Source of the DNA: Paraburkholderia sp.
Lineage (GTDB): Bacteria; Pseudomonadota; Gammaproteobacteria; Burkholderiales; Burkholderiaceae
DNA length: 64,000 nucleotides
Assembly (NCBI GenBank): GCA_004322045.1
Contig: SCRN01000026.1
Coordinates: 1-64,000, forward strand
Direction: 5' to 3'
The notes beneath the pieces were generated by a model. That model searched no databases. It was not told the DNA's origin and saw nothing but the letters and a program-made list of their open reading frames with translations. Of the stretch, positions 2,367-8,613 are shown piece by piece. A program made the translations under genes and the position numbers. Each line of letters opens with the position of its first letter. Within the stretch, counting starts at the first letter, position 1.

Positions 2367-5084
2367 ATGGCCCACAATCTGCACAACACGCTCAAGGAAT
2401 TCGACAGTGGCTCCGGCAAGGGCAAGTTCTACTCGCTGCCCCAGCTCGGCAAGGCGTTGAACGTCAAGATCGACCGGCTGCCGCTGTCGATTCGTATCGT
2501 TCTGGAATCGGTGCTGCGCAATTACGACGAGAAGAAGGTCTCGGAAGAGCACATCAAGCAACTCGCCCACTGGAAACCGAATGCCCCCCGCGTGGATGAG
2601 ATTCCGTTCGTGGTCGCGCGGGTCGTGCTGCAGGATTTCACGGGCGTGCCGCTGTTGGCCGATATCGCCGCCATGCGCGGCGTCGCCAAGCGCACGGGTA
2701 AGAACCCGAAGACGATCGAGCCGCTCGTGCCGGTCGATCTCGTGGTGGATCACTCGGTGCAGATCGACTACTTCCGTCGAAAGGACGCACTCGATCTGAA
2801 CATGAAGCTCGAGTTTCAGCGCAACAACGAGCGTTATCAGTTCATGAAGTGGGGCATGCAGGCGTTCGACACGTTCAAGGTCGTGCCGCCCGGCGTCGGC
2901 ATCGTTCACCAGGTGAACCTCGAGTATCTCGCGCGCGGCGTGCACAAGAAGACCGAAGGCGCTGACACGGTGTACTACCCGGACACGCTCGTCGGCACGG
3001 ACAGCCATACGACGATGATCAACGGCATCGGCGTAGTGGGCTGGGGCGTAGGCGGCATCGAAGCCGAAGCGGGCATGCTCGGCCAGCCGGTGTACTTCTT
3101 GACGCCCGACGTCGTCGGCGTCGAGCTCAAGGGCAAGCTGCGCGAAGGCGTAACGGCAACCGATCTCGTGTTGACGATCACCGAGATGCTGCGCAAGGAG
3201 AAGGTGGTCGGAAAGTTCGTCGAATTCTTCGGCGACGGCACCGCATCGCTGGCGGTGCCCGACCGCGCGACCCTCGGCAACATGGCGCCCGAGTACGGCG
3301 CGACGATGGGCTTTTTCCCCGTCGACGAAAGGACGATCGATTACTTCAAGGGCACGGGGCGCACCGACGCGGAAATCGCCGCGTTCGAAAACTACTTCAA
3401 GGCCCAAGGGTTGTTCGGCATTCCGAAGGCCGGTCAAATCGATTACACGAAGGTCGTCACGCTCGACCTCGGCACCGTGGCGCCCTCGCTGGCCGGGCCC
3501 AAGCGCCCGCAAGACCGCATCGAGATCGGCAACATGAAATCGACGTTCGCCGATCTGTTCGTCAAGCCCGTCGGCGAGAACGGCTTCGCCAAGAAGCCGG
3601 CCGATCTCGACGCAGAGTACCAAACGTCCAATGGCGTGAAGCTCAAGAACGGCGACGTGCTGATCGCCGCTATCACGTCGTGCACGAACACGTCGAACCC
3701 GAGCGTGCTGCTTGCCGCGGGCTTACTGGCGAAGAAGGCCGTGGAAGCCGGGCTGACGGTGGCGCCGCACATCAAGACGTCGTTGGCGCCGGGGTCGCGC
3801 ATCGTCACCGAGTACCTGACGAAGACGGGCCTGCTGCCGTATCTGTCGCAGCTCGGCTTCGAACTGGCTGCTTATGGCTGCACGACCTGTATCGGCAACG
3901 CCGGTGATCTCACGCCGGAGTTGAACGAAGCGATCACGAAGAACGATGTCGTCGCGGCCGCCGTGTTGTCGGGCAATCGCAACTTCGAAGCGCGTATCCA
4001 CCCGAACATTCGCGCGAACTTCCTCGCCTCGCCGCCGCTCGTCGTGGCCTATGCGATAGCAGGGACCGTCACGCGCGATCTCATGACCGAGCCGGTCGGC
4101 AAGGGCAACGGCGGCAGGGATATCTATCTCGGCGACATTTGGCCGACGAGCGAAGAAATCAACGCGTTGCTCAAGTACGCGCTCGATGCTCAAGCATTCC
4201 GCACGAACTACTCGCAGCTCACCAAGCAGGGCGACCTGTGGAGCAAGATCGAGGGTGAAGAAGGCCAGGTCTACGACTGGCCGAAGTCGACGTACATTGC
4301 GGAGCCGCCGTTCTTCGGCGCGGATTTCTCGATGACGCCGTCGGACACGATCCCGGCGATCCAAGGCGCGCGCGCACTCGGTATCTTCGGCGATTCGGTC
4401 ACCACCGATCACATCAGCCCCGCGGGCTCGATCAAGGAGGACTCCCCGGCCGGCAAGTGGCTCAAGGCGAACGGCGTGCAAAAGGCCGACTTCAACAGCT
4501 ACGGCTCGCGCCGCGGCAATCATGACGTGATGATGCGCGGCACGTTTGCGAACGTTCGGATCAAGAACCTCATGATTCCGCCGAAGGCCGACGGTACGCG
4601 CGTGGAAGGCGGGTTGACGATCCATCAACCGAGCGGCGAACAATTGCCGATCTATGACGCGGCGATGAAGTACATCGACGCCGGTACGCCGACGATGATC
4701 TTCGCGGGCGAAGAGTACGGCACGGGCTCGTCGCGCGATTGGGCGGCAAAGGGCACGCAACTGCTGGGGGTGAAGGCGGTCGTGGCGCGCAGCTTCGAGC
4801 GGATCCATCGTTCGAACCTCGTCGGCATGGGCGTGCTGCCGCTGCAGTTCATCGGGACGGACAGCGTGCAATCGCTCGGCATCACGGGCGAGGAAACGTA
4901 CGATATCGAAGGCCTCGGTGACGACTTCAAGCCGCAGCAAGAAGTCACGCTCGTGATCCATCGCAAGAACGGCACGACGCAACGCGCGCCTGTGCTGCTG
5001 CGCATCGATACGCCGATCGAAGTCGACTACTTCAAGCACGGCGGGATCTTGCCATTTGTGTTGCGCTCGCTTCTGGCGGCGTAA
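2367..5084 (+). CDS. acnA: Aconitate hydratase A (acts with PrpD in methylcitrate cycle)
   Basis: A 905-residue aconitase A/IRP-type [4Fe-4S] hydro-lyase. I place the start at the ATG at 2367 ([10 protein letters not shown]); the open frame continues upstream into prpD but without coding sense. The iron-sulfur cysteines are visible at C439 (SCTNTSNPS) and at C505 and C508 (GCTTCIGN). The substrate-site GTDSHT motif and the C-terminal swivel-domain signature [15 protein letters not shown] are also intact. Its position after prpD indicates that it rehydrates 2-methyl-cis-aconitate to 2-methylisocitrate, besides ordinary citrate/isocitrate isomerisation. The prpD-prpC context argues for AcnA rather than AcnD, which normally pairs with PrpF instead of PrpD. 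Two hairpins follow the stop codon. Confidence 0.95.
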
Positions 5085-5119
5085 AACCTCGCTGTCAGCG
5101 AACTGTTGATTCGCAGGCG

Positions 5120-5145
5120 CCGCGCTTCGTCGTTTCGAAGCGCGG
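5120..5145 (+). other. Perfect hairpin downstream of acnA
   Basis: A 10-bp perfect inverted repeat (CCGCGCTTCG and its complement) with a 6-nt loop lies 35 nt after the acnA stop codon. It has no U-run, so it is more likely a 3' mRNA-protecting hairpin working with the terminator that follows than a terminator itself. Confidence 0.6.
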
Positions 5146-5152
5146 TGATTCT

Positions 5153-5178
5153 AAACCCGGCTTTGGCCGGGTTTTTTA
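5153..5178 (+). terminator. Rho-independent terminator of the prp/acnA operon
   Basis: A 9-bp perfect stem (AAACCCGGC paired with GCCGGGTTT, loop TTTG) is followed directly by a run of six T interrupted by one A. It lies 68 nt after the acnA stop codon and closes the propionate operon. Confidence 0.9.
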
Positions 5179-5198
5179 TTTCACCATGACTCCAGTAC

Positions 5199-5337
5199 CG
5201 GACGAACACCAGCGAGCGCCGCAAGCCCGCCTTGGGCCCGTAGGGGGAACTGACCGTCGAACAGGCCCGCCCGCTCGCGCAGGAATGGCTGGCCCAAGTA
5301 CGCCGGGGAGGTGATCCCGGCGCAGCCAAGGCGAATC
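5199..5337 (+). pseudogene. Remnant of a tyrosine-integrase gene (arm-type DNA-binding region)
   Basis: Read in the frame starting at 5199, the DNA encodes TSERRKPALGP, then an in-frame TAG at 5241-5243, then GELTVEQARPLAQEWLAQVR and RGGDPGAAKA. The motif pattern LTVEQAR...LAxEWLAxVRxGGDP is familiar from the N-terminal (DUF4102-like) region of phage and island tyrosine recombinases. Only about 45 codons remain, with no start, a nonsense codon and no catalytic domain, so it is a relic. It stops being recognisable just where the AbiE operator region begins, which suggests the toxin-antitoxin operon was brought in with, or inserted into, an integrative element. The call rests on remembered family patterns and is not alignment-tested. 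Confidence 0.65.
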
Positions 5338-5358
5338 ATATTTCACCAGAATTGTTTA

Positions 5359-5442
5359 TTTCAACAAACGCTGAAAATGCCGTTTTAGTGAAATAAGTCT
5401 TGATAATTTCACTGAAAATGCTATTTTCAACAGATGCTGAAA
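5359..5442 (+). promoter_or_regulatory. Operator array and promoter of the AbiE-type operon
   Basis: Two near-identical 18-bp elements, TTTCAACAAACGCTGAAA (5359-5376) and TTTCAACAGATGCTGAAA (5425-5442), flank a pair of oppositely oriented TTTCACT-GAAA-like boxes (5384-5393 and 5407-5417), so the 84-bp block is also roughly symmetrical. A promoter, TTGATA (5400-5405), 16 nt, TATTTT (5422-5427), sits inside it, so a bound repressor would block RNA polymerase. AbiEi antitoxins are known to autoregulate by binding inverted repeats upstream of their own gene, which fits this layout. Confidence 0.7.
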
Positions 5443-5454
5443 CCAGGTCATTTG

Positions 5455-6516
5455 ATGAAAGACATAGAGAGTCAAGCGGCGCAGGCGCTTCGCTTGCTGC
5501 TGGAGCAAGTGCCTGCAATCAAGCTTTTGGACATGGAGTACGAGGCGTCTGGGCCGGACCAAGGCGTTGATATCGTGGCTCATATCAACGTGTCTGGCAG
5601 GCGCCATGTGCTGGTCTGCGAAGTAAAGTCCACCGGCCAACCGCGCCATGTGCGGATGGCATTGCTTCAACTGCGCAACTACATGGCACACCATGCGCAA
5701 GATGCTATTCCTGTTTTCATTGCCCCTTATCTGTCCTCTGACGCTCAAGCACTGTGCCGAGAGCAAGATGTGGGCTTTCTCGACCTCGAAGGCAATGCAC
5801 GCCTAGTCTTCGACAGCGTCTTTATCGAACGCCGGGTCGCGAGCAAACCCATTGCCGATCGGCGTGAACTTAGGTCACTGTTCAAGCCGAAATCTGCGCA
5901 GGTGTTGCGCGTGATGCTTCGTAATCCGCGCCAGGCGTGGCGCGTCACGGATCTTGCGGAGGCCGCCGCTGTCAGCCTTGGTCACGTTAGCAACGTTCGC
6001 GTCGGCCTGCTTGATCGGGAGTGGGCGCAAGTGTCTGAAGAGGGTCTGTTTCTATCCGAGCCCGATGCGCTGCTGGATGAATGGCGCGACGCCTACGAAC
6101 CACCAGTTGGAGAGCGTCTGGCCTTCTATACAACACTGCACGGCAGCGCGTTAGAGGAAGCTGCACGGCGAGTGCTGCGTTCGGATGGATCGGTCGGCCT
6201 AGCAGCATTTGCATCGTTTTCAGCAGCACACTGGCTCGCGCCGTACGGTCGGACAGGCACGCAATATTTCTATTCGGACGAGGCAGGTCTTGAGCGCCTG
6301 CAATCAGCCTTGAAGCTCTCTGCGATTTCCAAAGGCGAAAACGTGGTGGTAACCCTGCTCAAGGATTCTGGTTTGTTGCGCGACACGGAGGAGCCGGCGC
6401 CGGGAGCAATCTGCACAAGCCCGGTCCAAACCTATCTTGATCTTGCCAACGCCGGCGAACGCGGGCGAGAGGCTGCAGATCATCTACGACAAGAAAGGCT
6501 GACATGGCCGAAATGA
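5455..6516 (+). CDS. AbiEi-like antitoxin/regulator with PD-(D/E)XK-like N-terminal domain
   Basis: A 353-residue protein. I prefer the ATG at 5455 over the in-frame ATG at 5434 because 5434 lies inside the operator repeat and at the predicted transcription start, while 5455 has an AGG 7 nt upstream. Residues 1-130 resemble a restriction-endonuclease fold: GVD at D39, then CEVKS with E56 and K58, and Q72, the spacing of a D...ExK...Q site. The motif GFLDLEGNAR follows near residue 105. Residues 135-190 look like a winged helix-turn-helix (VTDLAEAAAVSLGHVSNVR), and the rest is an AbiEi-type C-terminal domain. It overlaps the next gene by 13 nt, the usual antitoxin-first order. The family assignment (AbiEi_2-like) is from pattern recall; nuclease activity is untested. 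Confidence 0.82.
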   Translation: MKDIESQAAQALRLLLEQVPAIKLLDMEYEASGPDQGVDIVAHINVSGRRHVLVCEVKSTGQPRHVRMALLQLRNYMAHHAQDAIPVFIAPYLSSDAQALCREQDVGFLDLEGNARLVFDSVFIERRVASKPIADRRELRSLFKPKSAQVLRVMLRNPRQAWRVTDLAEAAAVSLGHVSNVRVGLLDREWAQVSEEGLFLSEPDALLDEWRDAYEPPVGERLAFYTTLHGSALEEAARRVLRSDGSVGLAAFASFSAAHWLAPYGRTGTQYFYSDEAGLERLQSALKLSAISKGENVVVTLLKDSGLLRDTEEPAPGAICTSPVQTYLDLANAGERGREAADHLRQERLTWPK

Positions 6517-7373
6517 CATCTGGCGAGCCACAATCCGCCGCCGACTACGACGACCGCACGACAACTGCCGTCAAAACGGTGCTGATCGAAATCGGCCAGA
6601 TTCTCGGGAGCTTCAAGGGAAAATTCGCCATCGTTGGCGGCGCCGTACCGTGGCTGCTGCTTGGCAACGAGGATATGCCACACGTCGGTACGCTCGACGT
6701 GGACCTTGGGCTGGACGCAGAGGCTTTGGGGGACGGCGAATACGCAACGCTCATTGAAGCGCTACAAGGACATGGCTACCTGCAGCGTCGAGAGCTTCGC
6801 CGCTTTCAGTTCGTTCGCCAGGTTCCGACTGAAGATGGCGGGGCACCTATTGACATCATTGTCGATTTCCTGATGCCCCGCGACGCCGAGATCGTAAAGA
6901 ATGTGCCACCGTTAATCAGTGACTTTGCGGTGCAAAGAGCAGACGGTGCCGATCTGGCTCTTCGCTTCTATCAGTTGGTGGCGATCAGCGGTCCGATGCC
7001 CGCTGGGGGTATGAACCGCGTGGAGATCGCGGTTTGTTCGATCCCGGCCCTCTTGGCCATGAAAGGGCATGCGATTGAGGGACGCTATAAACAGAAGGAC
7101 GCCTACGACATCTACTACTGTATCCGGAACTATCCTGGCGGCCCAGAGGCGCTCGCCGAGGAATGCCGACCGCTGCTTGATCATGCTAGCGGTGCGGCGG
7201 GCTATGGTTTCATCGCTGGCAAGTTCGATACCGTTGATGGTTTCGGCCCGACATGTGTGCGCCGCTTCGTTGAGGAAACGAACGTGCTTGGGGATCGCAG
7301 CCCGGAGCAATGGCAGCAGGACGCCTTCGGGCAGGTCGATGCTTGGCTGCGGGCGCTTGGCTTGAGGGAATGA
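6504..7373 (+). CDS. AbiEii-like nucleotidyltransferase toxin
   Basis: A 289-residue protein starting at 6504 (AAAGG 5 nt upstream) and overlapping the antitoxin gene by 13 nt; a second in-frame ATG at 6513 would give a 4-nt ATGA overlap. It shows a minimal nucleotidyltransferase core: the GG pair at 45-46, then T63-L-D65-V-D67, which are the metal-binding acids. Further on is KDAYDIYYCIRNYPGG, matching the KDxxD motif of AbiEii toxins. In characterised systems AbiEii-family toxins are nucleotidyltransferases that stop growth, some by adding nucleotides to tRNA acceptor ends, and cause phage abortive infection. The tight overlap and shared promoter fit a type IV TA pair. GC content is visibly lower than in the flanking operons. 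Confidence 0.83.
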   Translation: MAEMTSGEPQSAADYDDRTTTAVKTVLIEIGQILGSFKGKFAIVGGAVPWLLLGNEDMPHVGTLDVDLGLDAEALGDGEYATLIEALQGHGYLQRRELRRFQFVRQVPTEDGGAPIDIIVDFLMPRDAEIVKNVPPLISDFAVQRADGADLALRFYQLVAISGPMPAGGMNRVEIAVCSIPALLAMKGHAIEGRYKQKDAYDIYYCIRNYPGGPEALAEECRPLLDHASGAAGYGFIAGKFDTVDGFGPTCVRRFVEETNVLGDRSPEQWQQDAFGQVDAWLRALGLRE

Positions 7374-7411
7374 ATGCCATGACAACAACAGCGGGCCCAC
7401 GCTCGCCCACC

Positions 7412-7798
7412 CTATTTGTGCTGCGCCTTATATGCGACGCAGTCGATTTCCACCTTGCAATCGATCACCATGCTCGACACCACCGCCGCACGCGCGGGCG
7501 GATGCTCGCCGAAATATTGACGGAACACCTTGTTGAACGACGCAAAATCGCGAGGATCATCGAGCCACACGCCGCAGCGCACGACATGTTCCGCGCCGTA
7601 ACCGGCTTCCTCCAAAATCGAAAACAGGTTCTTGATCGCCTGATGCGACTGCTCGACAATGCCGCCATTGACGACTTCCCCGTCCACCATCGGCGTCTGC
7701 CCCGAAACGAATAGCCAACCATCCGCCTCGACAGCGCGTGCAAAGGGCATGTGCTGACCGCCCGTACCTTTGCCGCCTTCCACGCCATAACGCTTCAT
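7412..7798 (-). CDS. RidA family enamine/imine deaminase
   Basis: A 128-residue RidA (YjgF/YER057c/UK114) protein; the start at 7798 is supported by the strong ribosome site AAAGGAGAG. The key residues are present: R103 in HPPARAAVV and E117 in KVEID, the pair that binds the carboxylate and activates water in RidA. Members hydrolyse reactive enamines and imines made by PLP enzymes; some relatives act in specific amine or amino-acid catabolic operons. It lies 65 nt downstream of the iclR-type gene on the same strand, and further upstream sits an amino-acid ABC importer, so a substrate-specific role in that pathway is plausible. The exact substrate cannot be read from the sequence. Confidence 0.9.
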   Translation of the reverse strand: MKRYGVEGGKGTGGQHMPFARAVEADGWLFVSGQTPMVDGEVVNGGIVEQSHQAIKNLFSILEEAGYGAEHVVRCGVWLDDPRDFASFNKVFRQYFGEHPPARAAVVSSMVIDCKVEIDCVAYKAQHK

Positions 7799-7863
7799 CG
7801 TTTCTCTCCTTTGAAAATCGTTGAGTGCTCGACCCTCACCAGCCCAGCAGCCCGCGCACGAGC

Positions 7864-8613
7864 TTACCGGGGCGACAGCGCTTTCGCAGACTGCAGCAGA
7901 TCGTCGAGCATCGCATCTCGCCGCTCGGGACTCGTATCTCGGCCCGTCATAAAACACAGCGCTGCAATCGGCTGACCCGTGCGGTCTCGTATCGGAGCCG
8001 CCATGCACAATCGAAACGCGTTGGAGAGCCCTTCCGTGCAGCAGTAGCCTTGGTCTTTCGCGCGCTGCACGTCTTGGAAGAACTCGTCGAATCCAATATG
8101 AACGCCGTTATCGAGAACGAAATCCTCGCTTGGAATGAGGGCGCGGATTTCCTCGGCATTCAAATGACCAAGCAGCAGACGGCCTGTGGCCGTCCAAGGA
8201 ATCGGCACTCTTACGCCGATATCCGAGCTGATATTGAATGGCCGCGCGCTACGCTCCGACAACACCACGGTGTACTTATTCCCTTCGAGCATGCACAGCT
8301 GCGCCGTCTCTTCGTACTTCCTCACCAACGCCAATAGCGCCTGATGCGAGCGGCTGATCAGATCGTTGTGCGTCGCGTAGTCGGAGCCGTAGTAGTGCAT
8401 CTCGCGCCCGAAGAACACGCCGCCGTCGGCGGAGGTCTCGAGGCAGCCGGCCTCGCTGAGAATGGCGACGAGCTCATAGATGCTCGAACGCGGCGCCCCC
8501 GTTGCCTCAATCAACTCGCGCATCGTCATGGGGCGCTGTGCGAGATGCAATTGCCGAAAGATATCGATGACGCGGTCCACACCCCTTGCCCGCGACGATT
8601 CCGTACCAGTCAT
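7864..8613 (-). CDS. IclR family transcriptional regulator
   Basis: A 249-residue regulator with the N-terminal winged helix-turn-helix of the IclR family (residues about 10-65, RGVDRVIDIFRQLHLAQRPM then LIEATGAPRSSIYELVAIL) and a C-terminal effector-binding domain (80-245) with the family-typical TATGRLLLGHL motif. The start at 8613 has GGAG 8 nt upstream. It lies between an amino-acid ABC importer and ridA, all on the minus strand, and most likely controls that importer in response to a small catabolite. A perfect 12-bp palindrome 28 nt upstream of its start is a candidate auto-operator. Confidence 0.92.
   Translation of the reverse strand: MTGTESSRARGVDRVIDIFRQLHLAQRPMTMRELIEATGAPRSSIYELVAILSEAGCLETSADGGVFFGREMHYYGSDYATHNDLISRSHQALLALVRKYEETAQLCMLEGNKYTVVLSERSARPFNISSDIGVRVPIPWTATGRLLLGHLNAEEIRALIPSEDFVLDNGVHIGFDEFFQDVQRAKDQGYCCTEGLSNAFRLCMAAPIRDRTGQPIAALCFMTGRDTSPERRDAMLDDLLQSAKALSPR

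Follow-up and report, generated by a model that had tools for sequence, protein, structure and literature searches.

An AbiE-type operon of Paraburkholderia whose putative antitoxin carries a predicted nuclease-fold domain with a variable catalytic site

The COG4861-COG4849 branch and the Paraburkholderia pair

Within the AbiE group of toxin-antitoxin systems, COG4861 and COG4849 are listed as a linked regulator and nucleotidyltransferase pair (Dy et al., 2014, PMC3985639). Rv0837c-Rv0836c is given as an example (PMC3968373), and PF09952 corresponds to COG4861 in the table of PMC7251935. According to Dy et al. (2014), COG4861 and COG5340 share no sequence identity, and autoregulation of AbiEi via inverted repeats has been established for COG5340 members (PMC7319586, PMC3985639). 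Our literature search returned no description of a domain anatomy, an operator or a nuclease-fold domain for the COG4861-COG4849 branch, and an earlier PD-(D/E)XK assignment of COG4861 may exist. Here, we describe two overlapping genes at 5455..7373 of contig SCRN01000026.1 (Paraburkholderia sp., GCA_004322045.1), of which positions 1-64,000 were analysed (hereafter the window). As those pairs are described, the locus has the same Pfam families (PF09952 and PF08843) and gene order, and it is a member of this already named branch. We posit, as the reading that we hold to be reasonably probable, that its first protein is a type IV antitoxin that represses its own operon and has a nuclease-derived domain in which catalysis is optional.

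Among better described systems, AbiE of Streptococcus agalactiae (COG5340 AbiEi with COG2253 AbiEii) likewise has an antitoxin with a winged helix and a nucleotidyltransferase-like C-terminal domain, and two inverted repeats over its promoter (PMC7319586, PMC3985639). Unlike in the published description of that system, the repeats found here are 18-bp palindromes that lie 66 bp apart, start to start. The toxin is MenT-like by sequence and model. Of the Mycobacterium tuberculosis partners as described for MenT1 and MenT3, MenA1 belongs to another family, while MenA3 is a COG5340-type AbiEi homologue. The coding features of the locus are as follows:

5434..6516, + strand: antitoxin and repressor gene, AbiEi_2 (COG4861), 360 amino acids from the ATG at 5434 or 353 from 5455
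5455..5817, + strand: N-terminal domain with a PD-(D/E)XK fold, residues 1-121 (counted from 5455), according to the predicted model and fold searches
5569-5571, 5620-5622, 5626-5628 and 5668-5670, + strand: codons of the site residues D39, E56, K58 and Q72
5851..6093, + strand: winged helix, residues 133-213
6136..6507, + strand: C-terminal AbiEi_2 domain, nucleotidyltransferase-like fold, residues about 228-352
6504..7373, + strand: toxin gene, AbiEii/MenT nucleotidyltransferase, 289 amino acids, overlapping the antitoxin gene by 13 nt

The original prediction, made from the sequence without database searches, had read a D...ExK...Q site of the nuclease type ahead of a winged helix and an AbiEi-like C-terminus, followed by an overlapping AbiEii gene. 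This anatomy is borne out when the antitoxin is read from 5455. AbiEi_2 (PF09952) covers residues 201-347 with 27.8 bits (cut-off 21), and the match of Mrr_cat to residues 31-111 stays below its threshold (16.4 bits, cut-off 21, E 0.0099). The AlphaFold model (mean pLDDT 88.2) has the elements H2-17, E22-29, E40-46, E49-57, H63-80 and E85-90, that is, a predicted alpha-beta-beta-beta-alpha-beta core of the PD-(D/E)XK type. In it, D39 stands immediately ahead of the second strand and E56 and K58 at the end of the third, and the loop 32-35, which precedes D39, has a pLDDT below 50. In fold searches residues 1-121 fall among nucleases, and together with the model this makes the predicted PD-(D/E)XK fold convincing. 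A chance origin of the motif was also considered and was dropped on the same searches.

PaqCI, EndoMS, Can2 and Card1 are PD-(D/E)XK enzymes, and the N-terminal domain has its core fold and D...ExK layout in common with the Mrr_cat and EndoMS/NucS nucleases. In a weak alignment with an Mrr_cat profile built for this comparison (E 0.0047) the D of the profile falls on D39 and its K on K58, with E56 in an insertion. A sequence search of the PDB gave no match to the antitoxin, and the best matches of two profiles (E 1.1 and 0.036) were not useful. From PADLOC came weak matches to AbiEii and, at residues 21-81, to PDC-S02. AbiEi-type domains occur fused to DUF559; our search for papers that treat DUF559 and AbiEi together found none. 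Judging from the models, the C-terminus of the antitoxin and the toxin would share a nucleotidyltransferase fold, and a profile comparison of the two proteins found no sequence similarity.

The second gene belongs to AbiEii (PF08843) with 23.8 bits (cut-off 22.5) and has the motifs GG45-46, TLD65VD67 and KD199xxD202 that had been read from its translation. For comparison we used a close clade of 48 antitoxin homologues with at least 45% identity, window included. A full-length toxin frame lies at the same locus in 42 of them, the exceptions being L003, L032, L036, L046, L053 and L070, and the motif residues are invariant in all 42. By analogy to MenT1 and MenT3, the toxin would block translation by adding nucleotides to tRNA. 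Of the 42 frames, 40 have T and 2 have S at residue 63, which lies two before D65 and corresponds to MenT1 T39 and MenT3 S78, the phosphorylated residues according to PMC11375011. The C-terminal domain of the antitoxin may neutralise the toxin, most likely by inducing phosphorylation of T63.

Further genes of this kind occur in the genome, where a search with PF08843 gave at least four places; the window's own toxin is absent from that list. One AbiEii gene just past the end of the window (G000:C54:64794-65479) is apparently interrupted, as two overlapping pieces and a TGA, and another has no internal stop (G000:C11:316116-316964). The same genome also holds a distant paralogue of the antitoxin (L069, G000:C46:97136-97672 and on; open reading frame 1315-2424) that lacks the ExK residues and is followed by another nucleotidyltransferase-like gene (open reading frame 2453-3268).

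Conservation of the nuclease-like site

In the close clade, 43 sequences have D at position 39, 40 have E and 3 have D at position 56, and 43 have K at position 58, L002 being one of those without it; at position 72, 24 of the 48 have Q and 19 have E. The triad is kept as D-[DE]-x-K in 35 (as strict D-E-K in 32) and broken in 13. When the 353 sites are ranked by rate, slowest first, D39, E56 and K58 take the mid-range ranks 152, 201 and 148. A full-length toxin frame accompanies the antitoxin in 11 of the 13 loci with a broken triad; of the other two, L003 has an antitoxin match that ends 259 bases from the contig end and L053 has no toxin frame that we could find. The 48 do not include L008 and L057 (internal stop, same scores), L060 (residues 1-314 only), L064 (split frame), L065 (a fragment), the presumed duplicates L061 and L062 (scores equal to those of L002 and L039) or any relative below 45% identity.

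The picture is similar in the wider family of 120 distinct antitoxins (131 minus 11 duplicates), of which 61 have D-[DE]-K and one has no letters at the site. The motif is present in 40 of 56 members of the Q-P group, to which the window's protein belongs, in 12 of 28 of the P-R group, where R replaces K in 4 further members, and in 9 of the 36 others, which include the member without letters. Frames of 678 and 647 amino acids (L118 and L145) were passed over here, as was L122, which is the window itself; L152, L156, L158, L160, L164, L166 and L168 gave no match. Mrr_cat nucleases from genomes of the same taxonomic family served as a control and, unlike the antitoxins, retain their triad: D-Q-K was found in 30 of the 30 best-scoring loci, a choice biased to conserved copies; of 40 lower-scoring places that were added and picked by hand for long coverage, 37 have D-[QE]-K. 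Of the other three, L233 reads D-Q-R, and L240 and L241, which form a pair, have no triad. Retention of the catalytic D-[DE]-x-K throughout the family, by which an active nuclease would be recognised, was thus not found.

A sister group that has PR without the QPR motif often keeps D-ExK-Q (L010-L012, L066, L082, L083, L114-L117, L119, L171-L177, L181). In annotated plasmids the next gene of this group is named AbiEii, 'antitoxin', 'GSU2403 family' or hypothetical.

Other residues of the N-terminal domain are far less variable. G61, Q62, P63, P91, C101, D110, G113, N114 and F119 are each found in all 48 close homologues, and all 120 family members combine G113 with D or E at 110. Because these positions are fixed while the triad varies, the domain is, as judged from conservation, strongly selected for something other than cutting. 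We posit that this family-wide duty is probably the binding or sensing of nucleic acid, which would tune repression or release the toxin. As relatives have repeatedly lost site residues yet keep the toxin, the antitoxin probably does not act by cutting, and catalysis seems dispensable for it; cutting by the present copy is possible but would be optional. The suggestion of the original prediction that the antitoxin acts by cleavage is in this respect not upheld. Homologues without D39, E56 and K58, which it had named as evidence against itself, do exist, but the residues are kept in most of the close clade and recur in other branches of the family.

Some of the evidence weighs against this account and lends weight to another, in which the antitoxin is a working nuclease that, besides repressing its own operon, cuts nucleic acid of phages or plasmids, or the tRNA product of the toxin, as an added defence that comes at a cost and is lost often. 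The triad is also present in branches that are only about 20-30% identical to the window's protein, and within the close clade all changes at the three sites lie on tips of the tree (5 of 5 at D39, 8 of 8 at E56, 5 of 5 at K58), a pattern shared by only 15 of the 93 sites with 4-9 changes, although this test was chosen after the data had been seen. Its presence in such distant branches marks the triad as old, and the tip positions of the changes make its losses look recent, as would be expected of an activity that is useful yet costly; restriction systems, too, often lose their nuclease half. A terminal-branch figure of 0.010 carries no weight here, since the 12 steps counted for 13 broken rows may include some that are not tips. 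The complete D-ExK-Q in a predicted PD-(D/E)XK core, the 35 close homologues with an intact triad and the relatives that adjoin defence genes (see below) fit the same account. It has to accommodate, however, that 11 loci combine a broken triad with a full-length toxin, that barely half of the family has D-[DE]-K when the Mrr_cat nucleases almost always keep theirs, and that Q72 is so often E. We therefore regard a working nuclease as a rather unlikely, though serious, alternative. To the same limited degree we would entertain the corresponding picture of the whole operon, in which an AbiE autoregulator with separately selected and often lost PD-(D/E)XK cutting would join a restriction-like attack to a tRNA-modifying abortive toxin.

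The repeated loss of the triad and the mid-range rates of D39, E56 and K58 would also be expected if the N-terminal domain were a decayed nuclease that now serves only for folding or dimer contact, with D-ExK residues that are drifting relics. Nine fixed residues, however, speak for strong constraint on the domain, and drift should have produced broken clades and not only broken tips at each site, so that we consider decay improbable. That the locus is not of the AbiE type at all, but a transcription factor beside an unrelated nucleotidyltransferase, could be argued from two Pfam scores barely over their cut-offs and from NCBIfam, which gave no fitting model. Memberships in both families, with the toxin motifs intact, leave this very little room. 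An autorepressing antitoxin with a nuclease-derived, optionally catalytic domain thus remains our preferred explanation.

Operator, promoter and start codon

Beyond the original prediction, conservation shows a dedicated, locus-specific operator upstream of the pair, to which the antitoxin would bind. Its elements, with distances counted from 5455, are as follows:

5359..5376: distal operator palindrome TTTCAACAAACGCTGAAA, from conservation of TTTCA-N8-TGAAA
5400..5427, + strand: promoter-like TTGATA-16 nt-TATTTT with a TG ahead of it, overlapping the operator (consensus scan, 9/12 matches)
5406..5416: half-site or short palindrome TTTCACTGAAA between the promoter hexamers, with TTTCA at -48..-44
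5425..5442: proximal operator palindrome TTTCAACAGATGCTGAAA, conserved at -30 and containing the probable start codon

The two 18-bp palindromes share the form TTTCA-N8-TGAAA, the proximal one at -30 and the distal one at about -96. Of the 48 loci, 37 have an exact proximal copy and 44 have one with at most one mismatch, which in all 44 lies at -30. An exact distal copy is found in 32 loci, and 38 have one with no more than a single mismatch, its position ranging from -93 to -99. In the rest of these loci (375,828 bases) the operator palindrome recurs exactly only once. In the 5.99-Mb genome the pattern TTTCARC-N4-GYTGAAA was found in two places, both at the pair, and the reversed control pattern in none. 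The TTTCA between the hexamers is kept, base by base, in 41, 44, 44, 45 and 43 of the 48 loci. The consensus scan found three such promoter-like sites in 5080-7700, where shuffled sequences gave 0.9 on average. According to our reading, the winged helix would bind the two palindromes over the promoter and start codon and so repress the operon.

The conservation of this region also bears on the start of translation. An ATG, GTG or TTG stands at 5434 in 43 and at 5455 likewise in 43 of the 48 homologues, so that the presence of a codon alone cannot decide between them, and a stop lies between the two places in 4. ATG specifically is found in 38 of 48 at 5434 against 25 of 48 at residue 1, and M-L-K follows from the upstream start in 34. 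The bases A, T and G at -21, -20 and -19 (42, 43 and 45 of 48) are commoner than their mirror bases in the palindrome require, since T at -22 is found in 8 and A at -23 in 24. For the ten annotated plasmid relatives among the 48, the annotation places the start at -21 in L071, L076, L079, L080 and L081, at residue 1 in L072 and L077, at -18 in L073 and at -36 in L074 and L075. Judged by these comparisons, translation probably begins at the ATG at 5434, 21 bases upstream of 5455 and inside the proximal palindrome. The message is likely to be leaderless, because the minus-10 box ends at 5427 and places the transcription start near this ATG. With its start codon inside the operator, the message is likely to be tightly autoregulated.

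Genomic setting, distribution and meaning

On one side of the pair an aconitase gene ends at 5084, and on the other a RidA-like gene occupies 7412-8008 of the opposite strand; both are named from their translations. One further feature lies just upstream:

5244..5342, + strand: remnant like the N-terminus of a tyrosine integrase (Arm-DNA-bind_3-like, Pfam PF13356), 33 amino acids, with a stop before it

Its match to PF13356 (E 3.6e-5, 24.2 bits) is below the cut-off of 27, and its position directly upstream hints at arrival of the pair via an integrative element. The aconitase end is present in 11 of the 11 genomes of the genus that were examined, our own included. The closest of these (G059, 92% identical at the aconitase end) has about 1.2 kb of other sequence, without the pair, before its RidA-like gene. 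In the other nine the examined stretch stops short of any RidA-like match. Since the closest genome carries other sequence at this place and the integrase-like remnant lies upstream, the pair is probably mobile cargo at a variable spot. The corresponding spot in the closest relative (L183) contains a 200-codon open frame, as would suit a variable insertion site.

Relatives of the antitoxin were found in 48 of 200 genomes of the taxonomic family, at 35 loci of a species-genome collection and in 76 of 72,556 plasmid records. A phylum-wide profile search gave 3 of 398 genomes, our own included, which is thin against the 48 of 200. No antitoxin match was obtained in 50,697 phage records, and viral contigs yielded one relative, 70% identical. 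Among the 40 listed plasmid relatives, several carry AbiEi/AbiEii annotations. At least three of 24 annotated plasmid regions (L071, L083, L176) adjoin genes with phage-defence names; the neighbours are DUF4297-HerA, a restriction endonuclease with Qat, and an ABC-three component system with a restriction endonuclease. In two Sphingomonadaceae plasmid regions (L074 and L075, about 4.8-7.0 kb) the pair is followed, in the same order, by one gene whose annotation is DNA repair exonuclease and one for a large hypothetical protein.

Little work has been devoted to the COG4861 antitoxins, which form a branch of a widespread family of phage-defence toxin-antitoxin systems. The three-domain anatomy proposed here would explain how two antitoxin families without related sequences serve the same kind of toxin, namely by having a two-domain core in common. 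Homologues that have the triad and others that lack it, the toxin being intact, form a natural experiment on whether the nuclease domain is a sensor, a binder or a cutter, and the operator offers an immediate handle for repression assays.
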